Positions 475 to 42,703 of a DNA stretch of 42,703 nucleotides are shown one piece after another (position 1 is the stretch's first letter; every line of letters starts with the position of its first letter). Made by a program: the position numbers and the translations under genes. The notes beneath the pieces were generated by a model. It worked only from the letters and a program-made list of their open reading frames with translations. It searched no databases and was not told where the DNA came from. Source of the stretch: Arachidicoccus sp. (GTDB lineage Bacteria > Bacteroidota > Bacteroidia > Chitinophagales > Chitinophagaceae). The stretch spans positions 138,464 to 181,166 of the forward strand of contig JAPWKH010000034.1 of the NCBI GenBank assembly GCA_028283605.1. Direction: 5' to 3'.

Positions 475-2604
475 ATGAAGTACAAATTTACGCGTACTCT
501 CTTTACGACAACAGCATGTATAGCAATAATGTCCGGAACATCTATTGCGCAATACAAAAAAATTAACTTTGCATCAACGTATGTATCCGGCTCGGGTATT
601 ACAAATGGATCCGGAGCAGTTGGGTTTCATCCTACTTTTTCAGGAGCATTTACCGGAAGCGCGGCCAGTTTATCTGCTACAGGTAGTACAGTAGCTTATG
701 GTCAATACAGCTATGGAGTATCTGGCGTAGCAAACGATACTATTTATGTAAAAATAAATAGCAACAACAGAACGAGTCAATTTTCCATTCAGCCGTATTT
801 AGGTAATGCCGTTGCCGGTACAGGCGGAACTGCCAAAGATTTAACCTTGCCTTCAATTACCTCCAGTTCCTTAAGCGATGGTAAATTGATATATTTTATT
901 GCGACGGCGCCTTTTGATGGTGTAAAAATTTCCTTAGCCGGTGGAGGAAGTTTTGGCGTTATTCCATTAACCAATTCAGGAGAAATTTGGGAAACATTCT
1001 TTAAAAGCGCAAGCACACTATGGCCTCAGGATTGCGACAGGCCTTTTGAGAGTGTCCACAATGTAAGTGGATTAACTTTAGGAGGATTTTCAAATCCTTA
1101 TGATTTTATAGATTACGGCTCTAACTATTTAAGTACATACAGTTCAATGCTATATGTGGGAGGCAGCATAGCCGGTGTATATACGCAGGAAATTTATTTT
1201 CCGTCACAAGGATCCGGCTCGGATGAAATAAAACTGCAAGCGGGAAATCCTTCAAGTATCTTAGCCGCTATAGCTGCATGGGGCGGTACAATAGGAAATA
1301 GCGTAACCGTACAACCATATATTGATAATACACCATCGGCAGCTGCAGAGTCTTTGGATTATATCATTAGTTTACAATTTGGCCCAGCTACTACAATCGT
1401 AAATTTAATCGATGGCGACAATGTAAAACCGATCTATTACAAACCCGGCGTTCCTTTTAATAAGGTTGTTGTGAAATGGAATGTGCCGTTTGGTGTAGGT
1501 ACTCTTAATCAATTTGCATTTTACGATATTCGACGAGTTGCAGAAACACCCAAAATTTCAACAGCGGATTCACAGGCAGTGTGTATCAATACAACCGGAT
1601 TACAATTGAATGCAGCGTCCGTTACAGGAGAGCCTAATCTTACTTTCCAATGGTATGCAAAAAATCCAAATGGAAGTATAGATTCTACACCTATAGCAAC
1701 GGGAAATACTTTTACAATACCTGATTCTTATATAACAACTGCCGGACGCAAAGTCTTTTATGTTGCTGCAGTACGTTCCGTTTGCGGTACAGTATTATCA
1801 GATGCAGATTCTACTATAGTACAGGTGTATGCAAAACCTGTGTTTACTAATGCTGCACTTGCTTCTAGCGGAGCTGTAGGAGTGGCTTATCCTTCTACTG
1901 TTATCAAAACCGACAGTGCCGCTACTTATAGTGTTTCAGGATTGCCTGAGGGTTTAAGCTTCAATGCTTCAGCTGCAACTATCAGTGGTATTCCTACAAC
2001 TCCCGGCACTTATGATGTAACTGTAACAGCTACGCCAAAAAATGGCCCCGGTTGCCCTACGACAATTATATATCATGTAACAATTTCGCCGGTAAGTGTT
2101 ACCCCTGTAACAGTTACTAATTTCATCGGTGCTTTAATTAAGGGCACTGCTAATTTATCTTGGAATACGGGTGTTGAAAATAATTTCAATTATTTCATCA
2201 TTCAAAGAAGTACTGACGGAAAATCGTATAGCGAAATACCCAATTCCAAAATAGATGCTAAAGGCAATGGCAGCGCATATACATTTAGTGTGTTGCAAAC
2301 TGAACCTGATGCTTATTACAGATTAGTCGCAGTTGATAAAGACGGATCGAAAGTTACAGAAGATAAAGTGGTTTATCTTTCTCAGAAAATCGCTACACTT
2401 GAAATCTATCCTAATCCTACAAAAGATAATTTGTACATTACATCTCCAATAGCAGGTAAAGTAATTATTTATGATGCAGTAGGACATACTGTTATAACCC
2501 AAGATGTACAAGTTGGTTTGAATACGATCAAAGTAAGCACTTTAAGTGCAGGAGTCTATTTCGGCAAATTAGACAACAGCCAATTTAAGTTTATTAAAAA
2601 ATAA
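475..2604 (+). CDS. Secreted Ig-like protein with T9SS type A sorting domain
   Basis: A 709-residue exported protein. Residues 1-25 form a signal peptide with a cut after SIA. Residues about 26-355 are a beta-rich Ser/Thr/Gly-rich region that I do not recognise. Residues about 360-455 look like an Ig/PKD-like module (QWYAKNPNG, VCG). Residues about 460-540 are a putative Ig domain of the He_PIG type (LPEGLSFNASAATISG, PGTYDVTVTA). About 545-635 is another beta module. The last 70 or so residues are a type IX secretion sorting domain: it begins LEIYPNPTKDNLYI and ends with GVYFGKL and a basic tail. It is therefore likely carried across the outer membrane and anchored or released at the surface. 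The function is unknown; adhesion or polymer binding is a guess from the Ig modules. It is monocistronic, followed by a strong hairpin terminator. Confidence 0.85.
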   Translation: MKYKFTRTLFTTTACIAIMSGTSIAQYKKINFASTYVSGSGITNGSGAVGFHPTFSGAFTGSAASLSATGSTVAYGQYSYGVSGVANDTIYVKINSNNRTSQFSIQPYLGNAVAGTGGTAKDLTLPSITSSSLSDGKLIYFIATAPFDGVKISLAGGGSFGVIPLTNSGEIWETFFKSASTLWPQDCDRPFESVHNVSGLTLGGFSNPYDFIDYGSNYLSTYSSMLYVGGSIAGVYTQEIYFPSQGSGSDEIKLQAGNPSSILAAIAAWGGTIGNSVTVQPYIDNTPSAAAESLDYIISLQFGPATTIVNLIDGDNVKPIYYKPGVPFNKVVVKWNVPFGVGTLNQFAFYDIRRVAETPKISTADSQAVCINTTGLQLNAASVTGEPNLTFQWYAKNPNGSIDSTPIATGNTFTIPDSYITTAGRKVFYVAAVRSVCGTVLSDADSTIVQVYAKPVFTNAALASSGAVGVAYPSTVIKTDSAATYSVSGLPEGLSFNASAATISGIPTTPGTYDVTVTATPKNGPGCPTTIIYHVTISPVSVTPVTVTNFIGALIKGTANLSWNTGVENNFNYFIIQRSTDGKSYSEIPNSKIDAKGNGSAYTFSVLQTEPDAYYRLVAVDKDGSKVTEDKVVYLSQKIATLEIYPNPTKDNLYITSPIAGKVIIYDAVGHTVITQDVQVGLNTIKVSTLSAGVYFGKLDNSQFKFIKK

Positions 2605-2668: not shown

Positions 2669-2765
2669 CAAAAAATATTAAGATAAGAAAGAAAGCTGTA
2701 TGATAATTTCCATACACAACAGCACGGATAATTTTTCAATTTCTTATCTAATATTTGCAATTCAT

Positions 2766-2773
2766 TACCTTTG
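2766..2773 (+). promoter_or_regulatory. Exact -7 box TACCTTTG just before kdsD
   Basis: TACCTTTG matches TAnnTTTG exactly and ends six bases before the ATG at 2780, which would place the transcription start at or within a few bases of the start codon. A second, looser box (TAATATTTG, 2750-2758) lies upstream and would give a conventional leader. Confidence 0.4.
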
Positions 2774-2779
2774 GTTTTT

Positions 2780-3745
2780 ATGAATACTTCAATTTTAGAA
2801 ACCGCAAGGCAAACCATATTTGCAGAGCAACAAGCTATAGCCGGATTGGCAAGGCAATTAAATCACAATTTCGAGAATGTCGTAAATATAATTCATCATT
2901 CGAAAGGAAGAATTATTATAAGCGGCATTGGCAAAAGCGCCATCATAGCGCAAAAGATTGCGGCCACTTTTAATTCAACGGGTACGCCTTCTTTTTATTT
3001 ACATGCCGGCGAAGCAACGCATGGCGATTTGGGTATGATTCAAAAAGATGACATCATTATTATTCTCAGTAAAAGTGGGGAAAGTTCAGAAATAAAAACA
3101 TTGGTTGCCCTTGTAAAAGGTTTGGGAAATATTATTGTAAGCATTACAGGATATTTGGATTCTTATCTTGCCAATCAATCTGATTTTGTAATAAATGCTT
3201 CTGTAGATAAAGAGGCTTGTATAAATAATCTTGCGCCTACATCATCCACAACAGCGCAAATGGTAATTGGTGATGCGATTGCAGTATGTGTGATGCAACT
3301 TAGAAATTTCTCTTCCGATGATTTTGCAAAGCTCCATCCGGGGGGAAATCTTGGCAAGAGATTGTATTTGAAAATAGAAGATATTTATCATCATAACGCT
3401 TGCCCTACAGTTTTTACAGATGCGGATATAAAAAGTATAATTTTAGAAATATCCAAAGGCAGAGTAGGAGCTGTAGCTGTTACAAGCGAAAATAATAAGC
3501 TGAAGGGAATAATTACGGACGGCGACATTCGGCGGTTGCTTGAAAAAGATGTAATATTATCAGATAAAAAAGCGCTGCAAATTCTTTCTCCTAATCCCAA
3601 AACTGCCACACCGGAAACGCTTGCTATTACTGCTTTGGAGACACTTAAACGATTTGACTTAAACCAATTAATAGTAATTGACAAAGATGAATCTGTTTTG
3701 GGATTTATTCATTTACATGATTTAATAAGAGAAGGAATTTATTAA
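2780..3745 (+). CDS. kdsD: KpsF/GutQ-type sugar-phosphate isomerase (arabinose-5-phosphate isomerase)
   Basis: A 321-residue cytoplasmic enzyme of the family that interconverts ribulose-5-phosphate and arabinose-5-phosphate, the first step toward Kdo of lipopolysaccharide. Residues about 35-175 form the SIS domain with GIGKSA at 49-54, HG at 81-82 and the Ser-rich phosphate loop SKSGESSE at 97-104. Two CBS domains follow at about 200-257 and 265-320 (GIITDGDIRR is the typical end of the first). Length is normal for KdsD (about 320-330). A TTG start at 2771 is possible, but ATG 2780 fits the family N-terminus. A GutQ-like role in sugar-alcohol use cannot be excluded, since the next gene is a sugar transporter. 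Confidence 0.88.
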   Translation: MNTSILETARQTIFAEQQAIAGLARQLNHNFENVVNIIHHSKGRIIISGIGKSAIIAQKIAATFNSTGTPSFYLHAGEATHGDLGMIQKDDIIIILSKSGESSEIKTLVALVKGLGNIIVSITGYLDSYLANQSDFVINASVDKEACINNLAPTSSTTAQMVIGDAIAVCVMQLRNFSSDDFAKLHPGGNLGKRLYLKIEDIYHHNACPTVFTDADIKSIILEISKGRVGAVAVTSENNKLKGIITDGDIRRLLEKDVILSDKKALQILSPNPKTATPETLAITALETLKRFDLNQLIVIDKDESVLGFIHLHDLIREGIY

Positions 3746-38099: not shown

Positions 38100-40343
38100 A
38101 TGCAAATCAAAATGCAAAGCCTTACGGAAGTAAGAAAATTTATGAACGGATACTATTGGTACTTCGGTCTGAGGCTTGCATTTGCCGTATTGCTGCCGAG
38201 CTTTATTCTATATCATTACGGACTTCTGAACCAATATGCCATTATACCTTTCGGAACGTTGCAGATAGGATTGACAGATGTTGTGGGCGCGCTAAACAGA
38301 CGAGTAGGAGCATTGCTTATAGGAATAGGATGTTTCTTTTTCTGTGCAATAATTGCAGGTTATACACGTGATATTCTCTGGCTGCAACTGATTGTATTAT
38401 TAGTGCTGGCGTTCGTATTTTCTTTAATGGGAATTTACGGAACGCGTATGCTGAACATAGGCATGACTTCCATAGTTGCCGCGATTTTTTTTATGGATAA
38501 GCATTTTGTGTCCGGTAATATTTTGCATACAGCATTATGGATGTCGGTCGGATGTCTTATTTATTTATTCATTTTTTTTATATCCTATAAACTTCGTCCT
38601 TATAAATTAATTCAGCAAATGCTTGGCGAGCATATCATTGAAGTATCCAAATATTTAAAGGCGCGCAGCAATTTTTACAATAAGGATATGAATGAGCAAT
38701 TGCTTATGGATAAAATAATGCGCGAGCAAATTACTATAGGAGAACAGCAGGAGAGTTTGCGGGAGATAATCTTGAAGACAGATGTTTCTGCCGATAAATT
38801 TTCATCGAAGAGCAGGGGTTTGTTGCTGATGTTTGTAGATGTTATTGATTTATTTGAACTGATAATGACTTCGCAACAGGATTATAAAAAACTGCATAAT
38901 TCATTTGATAATACACGTATTCTTACCTATTTCGGAAAGTATATTTTAGTACTGGCAGATGAATTGCAACATATTGGATTCGCTGTGCAATCGGGTAGAA
39001 CGGCGATGCCTAAAAGAGATTTGAATGCGCTTTACAACAGGGTTTCAGCCGTTTTCTATTCGTTCAGGAAGGAAAATATGAACCATGATAATGTGGAAGA
39101 TTTTATTTCTTTACGGCAGATTTTATATACGTTGCAATCGCTTAATGAACGTATCAAAAAATTATATTCGATAGCCGCATTTAACAAAGATGTTTTACAA
39201 GCGTTTCATTCCACGCCCAACGATTATGCTTCCTTTATTCCTGTACAGAATTATGATTACAAATTATTCTTTGACAGCTTTTCATTTTCATCCGGAATGT
39301 TCCGTCATGCAATACGGCTTACGGTTGCAATACTTATCGGCTGGGTTATCGGGAATGTTTTTAAAATATACAACATAGGGCATATTTACTGGATATTAAT
39401 GACGATTGTAATTGTTGTAAAACCCGCGTACAGCCAATCAAGGAAAAAAAATATCGACAGAATTGCAGGTACATTGGTCGGCGGCATTATCAGCTTTTTT
39501 ATTGTAATGACTGTACGGAACGAGACTGCAATTTTTATTTTAGTAGTCTTGGCAACGTTGATTACCTGTTCTTTCTCAAAAATAAATTACCGGTTTTATT
39601 CCATAGGAATTACCATGTTGGTAGTATTGTCTTATTATTTTCTTGTGCCCAATGCCATTACTTTAGTGCTTAGAGAAAGATTGCTTAATAGTGTGGTAGG
39701 CGTCATCATCGGTTATCTGGTATCATTGTTTGTATTACCGAATTGGGAAAATAAATATGTGCGTAATTATTTGCACAACATGGTTCAGGAAAGTAAAAAT
39801 TATTTTTCTGAAGTTTCGAATGTGCTTATCAAAGGTTCTTACGATACAGTAAATATCAAGTTGGCGAGAAGAAAAACATTGATTGCACTGGCAAACCTGT
39901 CGGACAATTTTCAGCGAATGCAGTCAGATCCCAAAAAGCAGCAACACAAGGCAAGAATACTTTTTCGGCTGGTATCGCTGAATCATACGCTTACTTCTTA
40001 CATTGTGTCTTTAGCGCAATATGCGAAAGAATCTGATCATAAATATCCTGCTGAAGAGTTTGAAAATATCATCAGCCAGATAAAAAATAATTATGATATC
40101 GTTGCAGCCATTGAAGAGGATAAACTTCTTGTAACAAAATTAAAGCCAATGCTGCCGGACAATGAGCATTTGAATAAATTATTGCAGGAAGCAAGAGTAA
40201 GGCTCAAATCTGATGAGGAGAAAGAAAAAACAATTTCCATAAGAAAAACCGTTACGGATTTCCGCACAATTTACGAATTGTTCAGCCTTATCAATACATC
40301 GGTTTGCGATGAAGGCAAAGTGATAAATGATTTTGAATTTTAA
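38100..40343 (+). CDS. FUSC-family inner-membrane protein (YccS/YhfK-like)
   Basis: A 747-residue protein with the two-block architecture of the FUSC/YccS group. The first membrane cluster covers about residues 18-165 (six hydrophobic segments, e.g. LRLAFAVLLPSFILYHY and LLIGIGCFFFCAII). A soluble helical part follows to about 400. A second membrane cluster covers about 400-555, and a helical C-terminus rich in Lys/Glu ends the protein. Related proteins are putative exporters of aromatic acids or membrane-stress factors, but the substrate is not known. It follows pth by 30 bases. The start is ATG 38100; a second Met four codons later (38112) is possible. Confidence 0.82.
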   Translation: MQIKMQSLTEVRKFMNGYYWYFGLRLAFAVLLPSFILYHYGLLNQYAIIPFGTLQIGLTDVVGALNRRVGALLIGIGCFFFCAIIAGYTRDILWLQLIVLLVLAFVFSLMGIYGTRMLNIGMTSIVAAIFFMDKHFVSGNILHTALWMSVGCLIYLFIFFISYKLRPYKLIQQMLGEHIIEVSKYLKARSNFYNKDMNEQLLMDKIMREQITIGEQQESLREIILKTDVSADKFSSKSRGLLLMFVDVIDLFELIMTSQQDYKKLHNSFDNTRILTYFGKYILVLADELQHIGFAVQSGRTAMPKRDLNALYNRVSAVFYSFRKENMNHDNVEDFISLRQILYTLQSLNERIKKLYSIAAFNKDVLQAFHSTPNDYASFIPVQNYDYKLFFDSFSFSSGMFRHAIRLTVAILIGWVIGNVFKIYNIGHIYWILMTIVIVVKPAYSQSRKKNIDRIAGTLVGGIISFFIVMTVRNETAIFILVVLATLITCSFSKINYRFYSIGITMLVVLSYYFLVPNAITLVLRERLLNSVVGVIIGYLVSLFVLPNWENKYVRNYLHNMVQESKNYFSEVSNVLIKGSYDTVNIKLARRKTLIALANLSDNFQRMQSDPKKQQHKARILFRLVSLNHTLTSYIVSLAQYAKESDHKYPAEEFENIISQIKNNYDIVAAIEEDKLLVTKLKPMLPDNEHLNKLLQEARVRLKSDEEKEKTISIRKTVTDFRTIYELFSLINTSVCDEGKVINDFEF

Positions 40344-40376
40344 TCCTTCCGAAAAAGGAATTAACTTTAACATTCT

Positions 40377-40384
40377 TATTTTTG
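40377..40384 (+). promoter_or_regulatory. Exact -7 box TATTTTTG upstream of the HYC_CC_PP gene
   Basis: TATTTTTG matches TAnnTTTG exactly. It predicts a start near 40389, between the FUSC stop codon and TTG 40408. This supports the shorter TTG start for the next gene. Confidence 0.45.
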
Positions 40385-40407
40385 TCATATATTCTACCTT
40401 AGCCTTA

Positions 40408-40821
40408 TTGAAAAAGACGGTATCTATATTGTTTCTTTGTTTGTATGCGTTTACTACTTCAGGCGCATATATAAGCATGCATTATTGCGGCAGCATGTTA
40501 TCGTATGTGTCTGTCAATATTAAAGGAGATGATAATTTTAATAATTGTTGCGGAAAGAATATAGAGATATATAGAAAGGGGTGTTGTTCCACAAAAATTA
40601 TCCGCCCTCATGTTTCTAACGACAGGCAATTATTTTCCGGCGATTACAATTTACAATTTGTACTGCAAGACTTAATATCTTTAACTTCCAATCATTTTTA
40701 TACAGATTTTTTTTCTGTTGATGAGAGAAAGAAGATTGTTTTTTATACAAACGCGCCGCCCAGTTCATGGCGAAAAATACCGTTGTATAAGCTTCATCAT
40801 CGTTTCATTTATTATGGATAG
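40408..40821 (+). CDS. HYC_CC_PP-family small Cys-rich protein
   Basis: A 137-residue protein with a hydrophobic signal (KKTVSILFLCLYAFTTSGAY). The name-giving pattern is present in order: MHYCGSM at about residues 30-36, NNCCGKN, KGCCSTK and a C-terminal APPSSWRKIP. The family is confined to Bacteroidota as far as I know and has no tested function; Cys/His arrangement suggests copper or another soft metal. I choose TTG 40408 because the signal starts there and a -7 box lies upstream; an ATG at 40327 would add 27 non-signal residues and overlap FUSC. It is encoded upstream of the HMA and TonB-receptor genes. Confidence 0.75.
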   Translation: MKKTVSILFLCLYAFTTSGAYISMHYCGSMLSYVSVNIKGDDNFNNCCGKNIEIYRKGCCSTKIIRPHVSNDRQLFSGDYNLQFVLQDLISLTSNHFYTDFFSVDERKKIVFYTNAPPSSWRKIPLYKLHHRFIYYG

Positions 40822-40899
40822 TTTAATTTAACTATATAATATTTAGTTTAAAAAATTAATTAATCCATCTTTAAATTAGAATAATGAAATGAGCCATAA

Positions 40900-40907
40900 T
40901 AATTTTG
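40900..40907 (+). promoter_or_regulatory. Exact -7 box TAATTTTG upstream of the HMA gene
   Basis: TAATTTTG matches TAnnTTTG exactly and ends 39 bases before ATG 40947. No TTTG lies at the right -33 distance. The HMA gene and the receptor may therefore form a separate transcript from the HYC_CC_PP gene. Confidence 0.4.
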
Positions 40908-40946
40908 GCGAATTCCATTTGATAATTAAAAAAATAATAATAAACA

Positions 40947-41297
40947 ATGAAACATATTTTTAGTCTTTTGGCTTTACTTCTATTTATATCAAGCGTTTCT
41001 TTTTCACAAAACAAATCCATTAAGACAGATGAAATCAAGGTTGATGGCATGTGCGAAAAATGCAAGAAACGCATCGAAAACGCTGCATATATAAAAGGTG
41101 TAAAACACGCCGACTGGAATGTTCAAACAAAAGAATTGACGGTAATTTATTCTTCATCTAAAACATCGCTGAATGCAATAGAAGAAAGCATTGCTCATGC
41201 GGGACATAATGCCGGAGATATACAAGCTACCGACGAAGACTATAAAAAATTGCCTCACTGCTGCGCGTATAAAGATGCTGCGGGTGCAGGTAACTAA
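40947..41297 (+). CDS. Secreted heavy-metal-associated (HMA) domain protein
   Basis: A 116-residue exported protein. Residues 1-20 are a signal peptide ending SFSQ. The HMA ferredoxin-like fold follows at about 27-95 with the metal motif GMCEKCKKRIE (Cys36 and Cys39) and the typical TVIYSSSKTSLNAIEESIAHAGH ending. A second His-Cys-Cys cluster, PHCCAYKD (His104, Cys105, Cys106), lies after the domain. The cargo is probably Cu(I) or a similar ion, acting in the periplasm because of the signal. The TonB receptor starts one base after its stop, so the two are translationally linked. It differs from the cytoplasmic CopZ type by its export signal. Confidence 0.88.
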   Translation: MKHIFSLLALLLFISSVSFSQNKSIKTDEIKVDGMCEKCKKRIENAAYIKGVKHADWNVQTKELTVIYSSSKTSLNAIEESIAHAGHNAGDIQATDEDYKKLPHCCAYKDAAGAGN

Positions 41298-41298
41298 A

Positions 41299-42703
41299 TT
41301 GCATTTTAAATATTCTTTTTTAGCCAAAGGTTTGTTCTTTATAATGTCTATATTGGCTTTACATGTATCTGCGCAGGATACAGCTAAGCAAAATTTTATC
41401 CGCAGGATAAATGGAATAATATTAGACACGATAAACGAAACGCCGCTTGGCGGAGCAAGCATAAAACTATTTCCCGGTAACAAAGGTTTTCTCAGTAAAA
41501 GTGATGGTCGGTTTGGTATTGAATTACCAAACGGAACTACGAAATTAATCATAAGTTTTGTCGGATATATAACTGATACAATTTCTGTTCCTGCCGATTC
41601 TTCAGCATTGGTTATTCATTTAAAATTATCGTCACAGTTGAAAGATGTGCGTGTAAAATCTTCGCGTAATAGTTTAGACATAAGCTTGGCGGACTTGCAG
41701 AATACACAAAATATCGGTGTGAAAGAATTGCTGCATGCAGCTTGTTGCAACTTAAGTGAAAGCTTTGAAACAATACCCTCTGTTGATGTGAATTATACGG
41801 ATGCGATAAGTGGTTACAAGCAAATAGAAATGCTTGGTTTGGCAGGAACCAATACTTCTTTTACCCGAGAAAATATTTCCGATACAAGAGGTTTGGCGTC
41901 CGTTACAGGTTTAACTTTCACGCCGGGAACCTGGCTCGAAGGCGTGCAATTAAGCAAAGGTACAGGCAGCGTTGTGAATGGTTTTGAAGGTGCTGCCGGG
42001 CAAATTAATACAGAATGGCTGAAGCCTTTTGAATCAAATACGCCTAAACTGATTTTAAACGGTTATCAAAGCATTCAGGGACGCTCGGAAGGAAATCTTG
42101 TTTTAAGCCATACATTCAAAGACAGCGTAAGTTCCAATTTATTTTTATACGCGCGATCTGATTGGCGAAAAAATGATATGAATAATGACGGCTTTATGGA
42201 TAACCCTATCGGTAAATTATTTGTTGGCGGAAACCGATGGTTCTATTTCAATCCGAAAGGCTGGGAATTCCAGGCGGGAATAAAAGGCGTTTATCTCGAT
42301 AATACAGGAGGTCAGCTAAATTACCACCGAAATTCAAATGATGATTTATGGGGTTATCAGAACGATATAAAGCGCGCCGAAGGATGGGCAAAAATCGGTA
42401 AGGTATATTCAGATAAGCCTTACGAAAGTATGGGGCTTCAGCTATCGGGCGTTTATCATCAGCAAAAGAGTTTATACGGCTTGCGCAATTACGATGCAGT
42501 GCAGCATAGCTTTTATGCCAATTATATTTTTCAGACAAGGCTTTTTAATGATAGCAATGTGATTAAAACCGGAGCAAGTTTTCAGTTAGACAACTATGAA
42601 GAGCAATTTGTAAGTACTGCATTTAACAGGCGCGAAATTGTACCCGGAATTTTTATGGAATACAGTTACAATTCCGGAACAAAGTTTAATCTTACTGCCG
42701 GCT
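41299..42703 (+). CDS. TonB-dependent receptor with Cys-Cys plug (partial)
   Basis: The frame is open to the window end (468 codons seen). TTG 41299 is the probable start: it gives a signal peptide MHFKYSFLAKGLFFIMSILA ending VSAQ, and lies one base after the HMA stop. ATG 41344 is possible but would leave an eleven-residue signal. A carboxypeptidase-regulatory-like domain spans about 36-112, then the plug from about 140. There LLHAACCNLSESFE carries Cys149-Cys150, followed by DVNYTDAISG and IEMLGLAGTN. The barrel begins near 255. I recall this AACCNLSESFE plug from Bacteroidota receptors next to HMA proteins. The likely substrate is a copper complex; this is inference. Confidence 0.8.
   Translation, partial: MHFKYSFLAKGLFFIMSILALHVSAQDTAKQNFIRRINGIILDTINETPLGGASIKLFPGNKGFLSKSDGRFGIELPNGTTKLIISFVGYITDTISVPADSSALVIHLKLSSQLKDVRVKSSRNSLDISLADLQNTQNIGVKELLHAACCNLSESFETIPSVDVNYTDAISGYKQIEMLGLAGTNTSFTRENISDTRGLASVTGLTFTPGTWLEGVQLSKGTGSVVNGFEGAAGQINTEWLKPFESNTPKLILNGYQSIQGRSEGNLVLSHTFKDSVSSNLFLYARSDWRKNDMNNDGFMDNPIGKLFVGGNRWFYFNPKGWEFQAGIKGVYLDNTGGQLNYHRNSNDDLWGYQNDIKRAEGWAKIGKVYSDKPYESMGLQLSGVYHQQKSLYGLRNYDAVQHSFYANYIFQTRLFNDSNVIKTGASFQLDNYEEQFVSTAFNRREIVPGIFMEYSYNSGTKFNLTAG

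Follow-up and report, generated by a model that had tools for sequence, protein, structure and literature searches.

Copper-sensing nascent chains such as CutF and CruR are known mainly from Pseudomonadota, and among the arrest peptides of Bacteroidota the uA class is said to precede secA, going by its name. Here we describe a gene of the HYC_CC_PP family (HYC hereafter) from Arachidicoccus sp. (Bacteroidota; Chitinophagaceae), which stands ahead of genes for an HMA protein and a TonB-dependent receptor and probably encodes a leader of the copper-sensing kind. The window, that is, the whole stretch of DNA analysed (42,703 nucleotides (nt) of contig JAPWKH010000034.1), closes at the end of its contig, and the genome comprises 3.59 Mb.

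CutF of Rhodobacter capsulatus (cutFOG) is presented as a co-translationally exported copper sensor with a Cys motif and a proline-rich end, the translation of which unfolds a stem-loop covering the next gene's start (PMC9973294). CruR, a DUF2946 protein of Bordetella pertussis, is reported to sense copper by a CXXC motif, to stall at RAPP and to control a TonB transporter (PMC9426467). Arrest peptides exclusive to Bacteroidota stall while the A site is occupied by the stop codon, and the arrest peptide uDF_NAP-stop precedes secDF (PMC10987492). According to a 2025 survey, RAPP/RGPP leaders related to copper occur in various lineages, Bacteroidota being among the exceptions, and TonB-related leaders throughout Gram-negative bacteria (PMC12992588). 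As for uptake in Bacteroidota, a receptor of Bizionia argentinensis was proposed to be involved with copper on OprC-like grounds (PMC11213822). Our literature searches, at the level of their listings, returned no recognised account of a copper response of HYC-headed operons in Bacteroidota, and no publication naming HYC_CC_PP or giving a role for the family was found.

HYC_CC_PP as first gene of metal-related clusters

The HYC gene of the window is located on the plus strand at 40408-40821. It most likely starts at TTG 40408, a codon that aligned with the start in relatives and lies downstream of TATTTTTG (40377-40384, plus strand), a promoter-like -7 box matching TAnnTTTG; the open frame reaches up to ATG 40327, and the protein consists of 137 amino acids (aa) from the TTG and 164 aa from the ATG. 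The HMA gene follows on the same strand after 125 nt, within the 1000 nt of the CutF-like criterion. The initial annotation had reported three adjacent plus-strand genes, the first for a small Cys-rich HYC_CC_PP protein. Indeed, this protein matched NF047658 at 40.7 bits (cut-off 28), all three genes were present, and their profile scores and the conservation of the set exceeded chance.

The gene order was examined in 161 loci pooled from two sets that share a few genomes (e.g. L110 and L126). The HYC-based set consisted of 79 neighbourhoods from the better-scoring HYC matches and two short loci, one of which was the window, and the receptor-based set of 80 named loci located by the receptor alone, the best 80 of 585 confirmed stretches. 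When a cluster was defined as same-strand genes with gaps below 600 nt, 117 clusters contained HYC together with HMA or receptor, and HYC led every one of the 117, though the order of HMA and receptor swapped behind it: HMA-receptor in 38, receptor-HMA in 29, HMA-HMA in 21, HMA alone in 18, plus smaller classes. The median gap was 81 nt from HYC to the second gene and 16 nt from the second to the third. For a further 38 HYC genes, no HMA or receptor gene was located on their own strand within 600 nt. The longest nearby downstream frame was taken as the neighbour of these solitary genes, and 19 such neighbours were scanned. Ten corresponded to ACR_tran (CusA-like by eye), HMBD, DUF3347, MbnP or HMA-MauE, partners which support a copper-like metal; the others were DUF305, beta-propeller, redoxin-like, Fe-S and sorting-domain proteins, while one more gave a weak beta-barrel match and three fell into no family.

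The -7 promoter consensus of Bacteroidota is TAnnTTTG. This motif was detected within 150 nt before HYC at 85 of 117 loci, with 87 occurrences against 18.4 expected, and 57 of the 87 began 11-20 nt ahead of the HYC start. The gap after HYC held only 6 occurrences, against 9.9 expected.

The motifs of the window protein are encoded at 40480-40488 (HYC), 40582-40587 (CC) and 40756-40761 (PP), with 19 residues after PP and YYG before the stop. In 153 unique sequences the distance from CC to PP was 54 residues in the median (interquartile range (IQR) 53-55, range 50-61) and that from CC to the protein end 72 residues (IQR 71-73), and PP near the end was present in 143. Mean ungapped identity was 0.126 in the linker and 0.246 in the last 12 residues, while C27, C47, C59 and C60 were invariant across 48 aligned sequences. 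The structural model built from these 48 sequences showed a signal helix (residues 2-17), a hairpin around HYC with good confidence and a strand at CC, from which to the end the predicted local distance difference test (pLDDT) was mostly 52-69 (mean of the model 68.4). Solved structures gave no convincing match to HYC (best E 0.92). Five of the 48 proteins matched Pfam DUF6769 (best 6.9e-6), which suggests that DUF6769 and HYC_CC_PP are related families.

Multiple copies were common, with two to five HYC matches per genome, at times a few kb apart. In L142 (Bacteroidales UBA12171) two HYC genes lie back to back (2225-2596, minus strand; 2731-3114, plus strand), one preceding a gene for a pump that looks CusA-type by eye and the other standing first before HMA and receptor, an arrangement suggestive of separate leaders for efflux and import. 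The HYC-HMA-HMA operons of the window's family (the 21 clusters above, e.g. L054:8735-9277) have no receptor with a Cys-Cys plug directly behind; their first HMA protein often carries a Cys-rich tail, and the second has about 181 aa.

Predicted helix between the end of HYC_CC_PP and the next start codon

Long inverted repeats were visible by eye in the gaps behind HYC. The idea that they begin after the HYC stop codon in all groups was rejected, as the gaps showed no overall difference from controls (p 0.17); the test was significant only for the receptor-first order, with p <= 0.05 at 10 of 25 HYC-receptor-HMA loci, against 1 of 34 for HYC-HMA-receptor and 15 of 206 for controls. After this post-stop test had failed overall, a sliding test, in which a 30-nt segment was moved along the HYC end and paired with the next start region (-25 to +15) at 108 loci, pointed to the region of the last HYC codons as the arm. 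With the segment start 20 nt before the HYC end, the mean z was -2.27, with z < -2 at 54% of the loci, while segments starting 45-180 nt before the end gave mean z values of -0.07 to 0.15 and 2-6% below -2. Sliding the target instead located the peak at the start codon (41%), with values of 4-7% at 5 nt inside the next gene and beyond. Control gene pairs from the same loci showed a mean z of 0.02, and 18 of 291 were below -2.

Shared sequence in the conserved tail codons and the ATGAAA starts might by itself cause pairing, and own pairs were therefore compared with mismatched pairs within each arrangement. Own pairs were stronger in all three arrangements, namely -12.5 versus -8.6 kcal/mol in the order of the window (n=36), and -9.2 versus -7.4 (n=28) and -9.5 versus -8.1 kcal/mol (n=37) in the other two, and none of 5000 permutations in each reached the observed strength. 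The two arms therefore change together between lineages. The signal was also seen in independent new pairs, of which 15 of 26 were below -2 (mean z -2.15; 2 of 27 at a control position), and in 32 of 61 representatives sharing less than 40% HYC identity.

In the window, duplex and fold predictions placed the 5' arm on the plus strand at 40802-40815, within the last HYC codons, with a short extension at 40822-40826, and the 3' arm at 40926-40930, 40937-40943 and 40947-40953, the last part of which covers the HMA start codon (ATGAAAC). Here GTTTCAT (40802-40808), read as HYC codons, pairs with ATGAAAC (40947-40953), and the helix continues to 40815. The duplex with the HMA start amounted to -10.9 kcal/mol, and z was -2.78, -2.82 and +0.82 for segments starting 30, 20 and 10 nt before the HYC end. 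The fold of 40795-40975 had a z of -2.09, with 9 of 200 shuffles equally good, and a relative of the same genus (L086) formed a helix of -15.4 kcal/mol at the equivalent place. An RNA structure hiding the next start, as in the CutF-like criteria, is thus present as a prediction. The Rfam scan of 40300-41500 gave no match at E up to 1.

Co-occurrence, the HMA protein and the receptor

The initial annotation had staked its proposal on the co-occurrence of the three families, and these were found to travel together across Bacteroidota. In the receptor-based set, 77 of 80 loci had an HMA protein near the receptor, and a purpose-built profile found HYC in 63 of 80, several of the remainder ending at contig edges. 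Because AACCNLSE was one of two seeds, this motif, unlike HMA and HYC, is partly built into the set. At E <= 0.001, HYC was matched in 137 of the 147 genomes from the window's family; for its class the figure was 77 of 119. In a class-wide sample, receptor matches were kept if better than 1e-50, which left 90 and excluded 11 at E 1e-20 to 1e-27. In 50 of the 90, NF047658 matched on the receptor's own strand in the 5 kb upstream; none had a match elsewhere nearby, and 40 had none, 31 of which came from genomes without any match among those listed. The NF047658 model misses divergent HYC copies. When Cys-rich frames were read by eye in the 1.3 kb upstream of the 30 best receptors, which overlap in species with the other sets, a HYC-like frame was recognised for 29, six of which (L251, L252, L260-L263) have MVC or MIC in place of HYC; no HYC-like frame was seen in the 1.3 kb upstream for L258.

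The HMA gene (40947-41297, plus strand) encodes a 116-aa protein with a signal-like N-terminus, presumed to be exported. Signal-like N-termini were recognised in the sequences by inspection, no signal-peptide program being applied. The protein matched PF00403 at 42 bits (cut-off 24.8) and has both the CxxC motif (MCEKC; 41052-41063) and the second cluster, HCC (41256-41264), that had been noticed in the initial annotation; CopZ- and MerP-type models also matched it, below their cut-offs.

For the receptor gene (41275-42703, plus strand), ATG 41275 is a possible start, which would make it overlap the HMA gene by 23 bases. The spacing of one base between the two genes given in the initial annotation holds with the alternative in-frame start, TTG 41299, and turns into this overlap with the ATG. 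Counted from 41275, the contig end leaves 476 receptor residues in the window. These comprise a CarboxypepD_reg-like domain (CarbopepD_reg_2, 42.5 bits) and then a plug with AACCNLSESFET, in which the Cys-Cys pair already noted is encoded at 41743-41748. The Plug match of this copy, which ends at the contig edge, was 19.1 bits, under its cut-off of 23.9, and the barrel model of a full-length relative (L126), the plug of which was poorly modelled, matched TonB-dependent transporters. OprC structures appeared among its fold matches, the first at rank 24, with siderophore and B12 receptors matching better. In an alignment of 48 receptors (47 from 58 candidates and the window; L160, without the motif, was left out), AACCNLSESFET was invariant at nearly every position, and a sequence alignment to 9gbc located it at the NLSDAL stretch of the plug of ordinary receptors. 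In the plug model the Cys-Cys pair could not be placed (pLDDT about 30-50 there). By association, copper import is the likeliest job of the receptor. L160 and L183 are receptors of the group with a plug that lacks the CC[NSD]L motif, and L183 is also fused to HMA.

HMA-receptor fusions occurred in 12 loci (L056, L077, L088, L109, L138, L145, L154, L166, L172, L183, L191 and L202), supporting a hand-over between HMA and receptor.

Upstream of HYC lies a gene for a 747-aa protein (38100-40343), which from its look may be a FUSC-type membrane protein, and a short CCTT..AAGG repeat is found between its stop codon and the promoter-like motif.

Interpretation and comparison with described leaders

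On the computed gene set, gene order, promoter-like motif, CC-PP spacing, helix and helix covariation, we read the locus as a copper operon with a sensor-like leader at its head, and assign a probability of roughly 0.6 to this explanation as a whole. The first position of HYC in 117 of 117 clusters, the 38 copies without partners, the low-confidence C-terminal half and the pairing of its end with the next start codon argue for a regulatory leader rather than a carrier. Transcription would begin just upstream of HYC and run through HMA and the receptor. Within the transcript, pairing would join the last HYC codons to the HMA start region; HMA would be translated well only when a ribosome is at or passing the end of HYC, and the receptor would be coupled to HMA through the overlap or close spacing. 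The HYC protein would be exported during its synthesis, with the HYC and CC cysteines binding copper. As with CutF and CruR, this binding would alter the length of the ribosome pause, either along the Pro-Pro tail or once the stop codon is reached. The genes under this control would encode the TonB-dependent receptor with the Cys-Cys plug, probably importing copper, and the periplasmic HMA protein receiving it. We infer copper as the ligand, metal sensing, ribosome pausing, the direction of the response and import. A tentative extension, to which we give somewhat short of even odds, is that HYC_CC_PP proteins are copper-sensing nascent-chain leaders throughout Bacteroidota. They would pause ribosomes on or close to their own stop codon, and through the helix they would control uptake operons (HMA-TonB) and perhaps efflux and storage operons.

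Several observations weigh against a copper-sensing leader. As to the promoter, no -33 box accompanied TAnnTTTG, a TTG at the right distance being found in only 18 of 90, and the HYC-HMA gap of the window itself contains TAnnTTTG, at 40900. Nineteen clusters hold HMA and receptor without a detected HYC, some of them at contig ends. In the protein, PP is missing from 10 of 153 sequences; in the window it lies 19 residues from the stop, compared with 15 or 16 in 96 of 143 relatives and 3 in CruR, and the last residues vary (FRI, FLI, YYG, FYA). No DUF2946 match was listed for HYC. The CxxC-CC spacing of HMA is also tight (IQR 64-65; standard deviation 10.7, from outliers), and since regular spacing thus occurs in a folded protein too, the CC-PP spacing of HYC is supporting, not decisive. 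Regarding the RNA, the post-stop test did not separate HYC from controls overall and was positive at only one locus with the order of the window. Predicted pairing of the start region, in folds that kept just 15 nt of HYC, was slightly higher than in controls (0.524 versus 0.496, p 0.048), and was low in the window (0.28). Among all 38 solitary HYC pairs, 26 qualified with gaps of 45-330 nt (12 were dropped for gap length); 7 of the 26 were below -2 compared with 4 of 26 at the control position, with mean z values of -0.85 and -0.38, and an earlier run on 24 pairs had given 6 and 5, respectively. The helix is therefore not established behind HYC genes heading other genes. Moreover, the helix alone would equally yield plain translational coupling.

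Such coupling would make HYC an ordinary exported copper-binding protein, with the helix coupling HMA and receptor levels to the HYC level and no sensing by the nascent chain. It agrees with a helix that requires merely a ribosome reaching the HYC end, with the confidently predicted hairpin around HYC and the four invariant cysteines, and with the result for solitary HYC genes. By itself, however, it leaves unexplained why HYC heads unrelated metal genes, why the CC-PP distance is fixed across so divergent a linker, and why the tail is conserved up to the stop, and we consider it rather unlikely. We rate as improbable the relay that the initial annotation proposed, in which HYC, HMA and receptor are three carriers moving copper inward from the receptor plug. 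The conserved co-occurrence, the cysteines in all three proteins and the fusions speak for it, and its hand-over between HMA and receptor and its copper-like metal, the latter through the HYC partners, found support. Its use of HYC as a carrier did not, as HYC leads all 117 clusters whatever follows, occurs in 38 copies that have no HMA or receptor on the same strand within 600 nt, and has a C-terminal half that is not predicted to fold. A transcription attenuation like that of CruR, in which HYC would control Rho access or termination before the next gene and the helix would be secondary, could draw on the Rho-dependent termination described for CruR (PMC9426467) and on the better folding of HYC gaps (mean minimum free energy z -2.04, n=98, versus -1.17 in controls, n=206; p 1.2e-7). 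The conserved pairing, however, spans the entire gap, from the HYC end to the next start codon, unlike a terminator hairpin with a U run, and attenuation appears very improbable.

The reading of HYC as a sensor-like leader places it close to CutF, which it resembles as a small, presumably Sec-exported protein with a Cys motif and a Pro-rich end, first in a putative copper operon, with a predicted RNA structure that hides the next start; in CutF, the leader must be translated (PMC9973294). The two differ in that CutF has CxxxC and HYC_CC_PP has HYC...CC, in that the hiding arm lies here in the last leader codons, and in the downstream genes, which are HMA and a TonB receptor instead of CutO and CutG (PMC9973294). 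The published filter for CutF-like proteins admits those below 150 aa with a Sec signal peptide and PP within 15 residues of the C-terminus, and the window HYC, with its 19 residues, fails it (PMC9973294). Over the family, 15 residues or fewer follow PP in 50 of 153 sequences and 13 or fewer in 13. Some HYC proteins may be contained in the CutF-like list D, 19% of which came from Bacteroidota, or 40% after normalising (PMC9973294).

Like CruR, HYC stands ahead of a TonB-dependent transporter, which is a copper transporter in the case of CruR, heads many different metal operons and keeps a near-constant spacing between Cys motif and Pro-Pro (54 residues in HYC, 45 in CruR), whereas CruR has CXXC, RAPP three residues from the end and Rho-dependent termination (PMC9426467). 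When 48 HYC members were compared with Pfam at E up to 10, where weak matches may be filtered out, DUF2946 was not among the 25 families listed of 26 matching, and HYC as a recognisable DUF2946 member was rejected. The stop-codon arrest peptides share with HYC the phylum and a conserved leader end reaching the stop codon, and differ in ending in proline, while HYC mostly ends in FRI, FLI or YYG (PMC10987492). The receptor would share TonB-dependent copper import across the outer membrane with OprC from Pseudomonas aeruginosa (PMC8610252) and CrtA from B. pertussis (PMC12914433), and differs from OprC in that copper is bound there by CxxxM-HxM and the plug here has CCNLSESFET (PMC8610252).

As HYC is not DUF2946 by profile and the window copy fails the PP filter of CutF, we call it a variant of the CutF/CruR-type leaders: it looks built like these, and sensing, arrest and the direction of the response would follow by analogy. 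If this is true, a family for which our literature searches yielded no role gains a testable job, as a regulator in place of a carrier, and a likely copper import operon is named in Bacteroidota. The HYC family would then fill the Bacteroidota gap of the 2025 RAPP/RGPP survey with a different arrest tail, and nascent-chain metal sensing, known from CutF and CruR, would be widened by a cysteine motif and a tail that differ from theirs and are in use throughout Bacteroidota.

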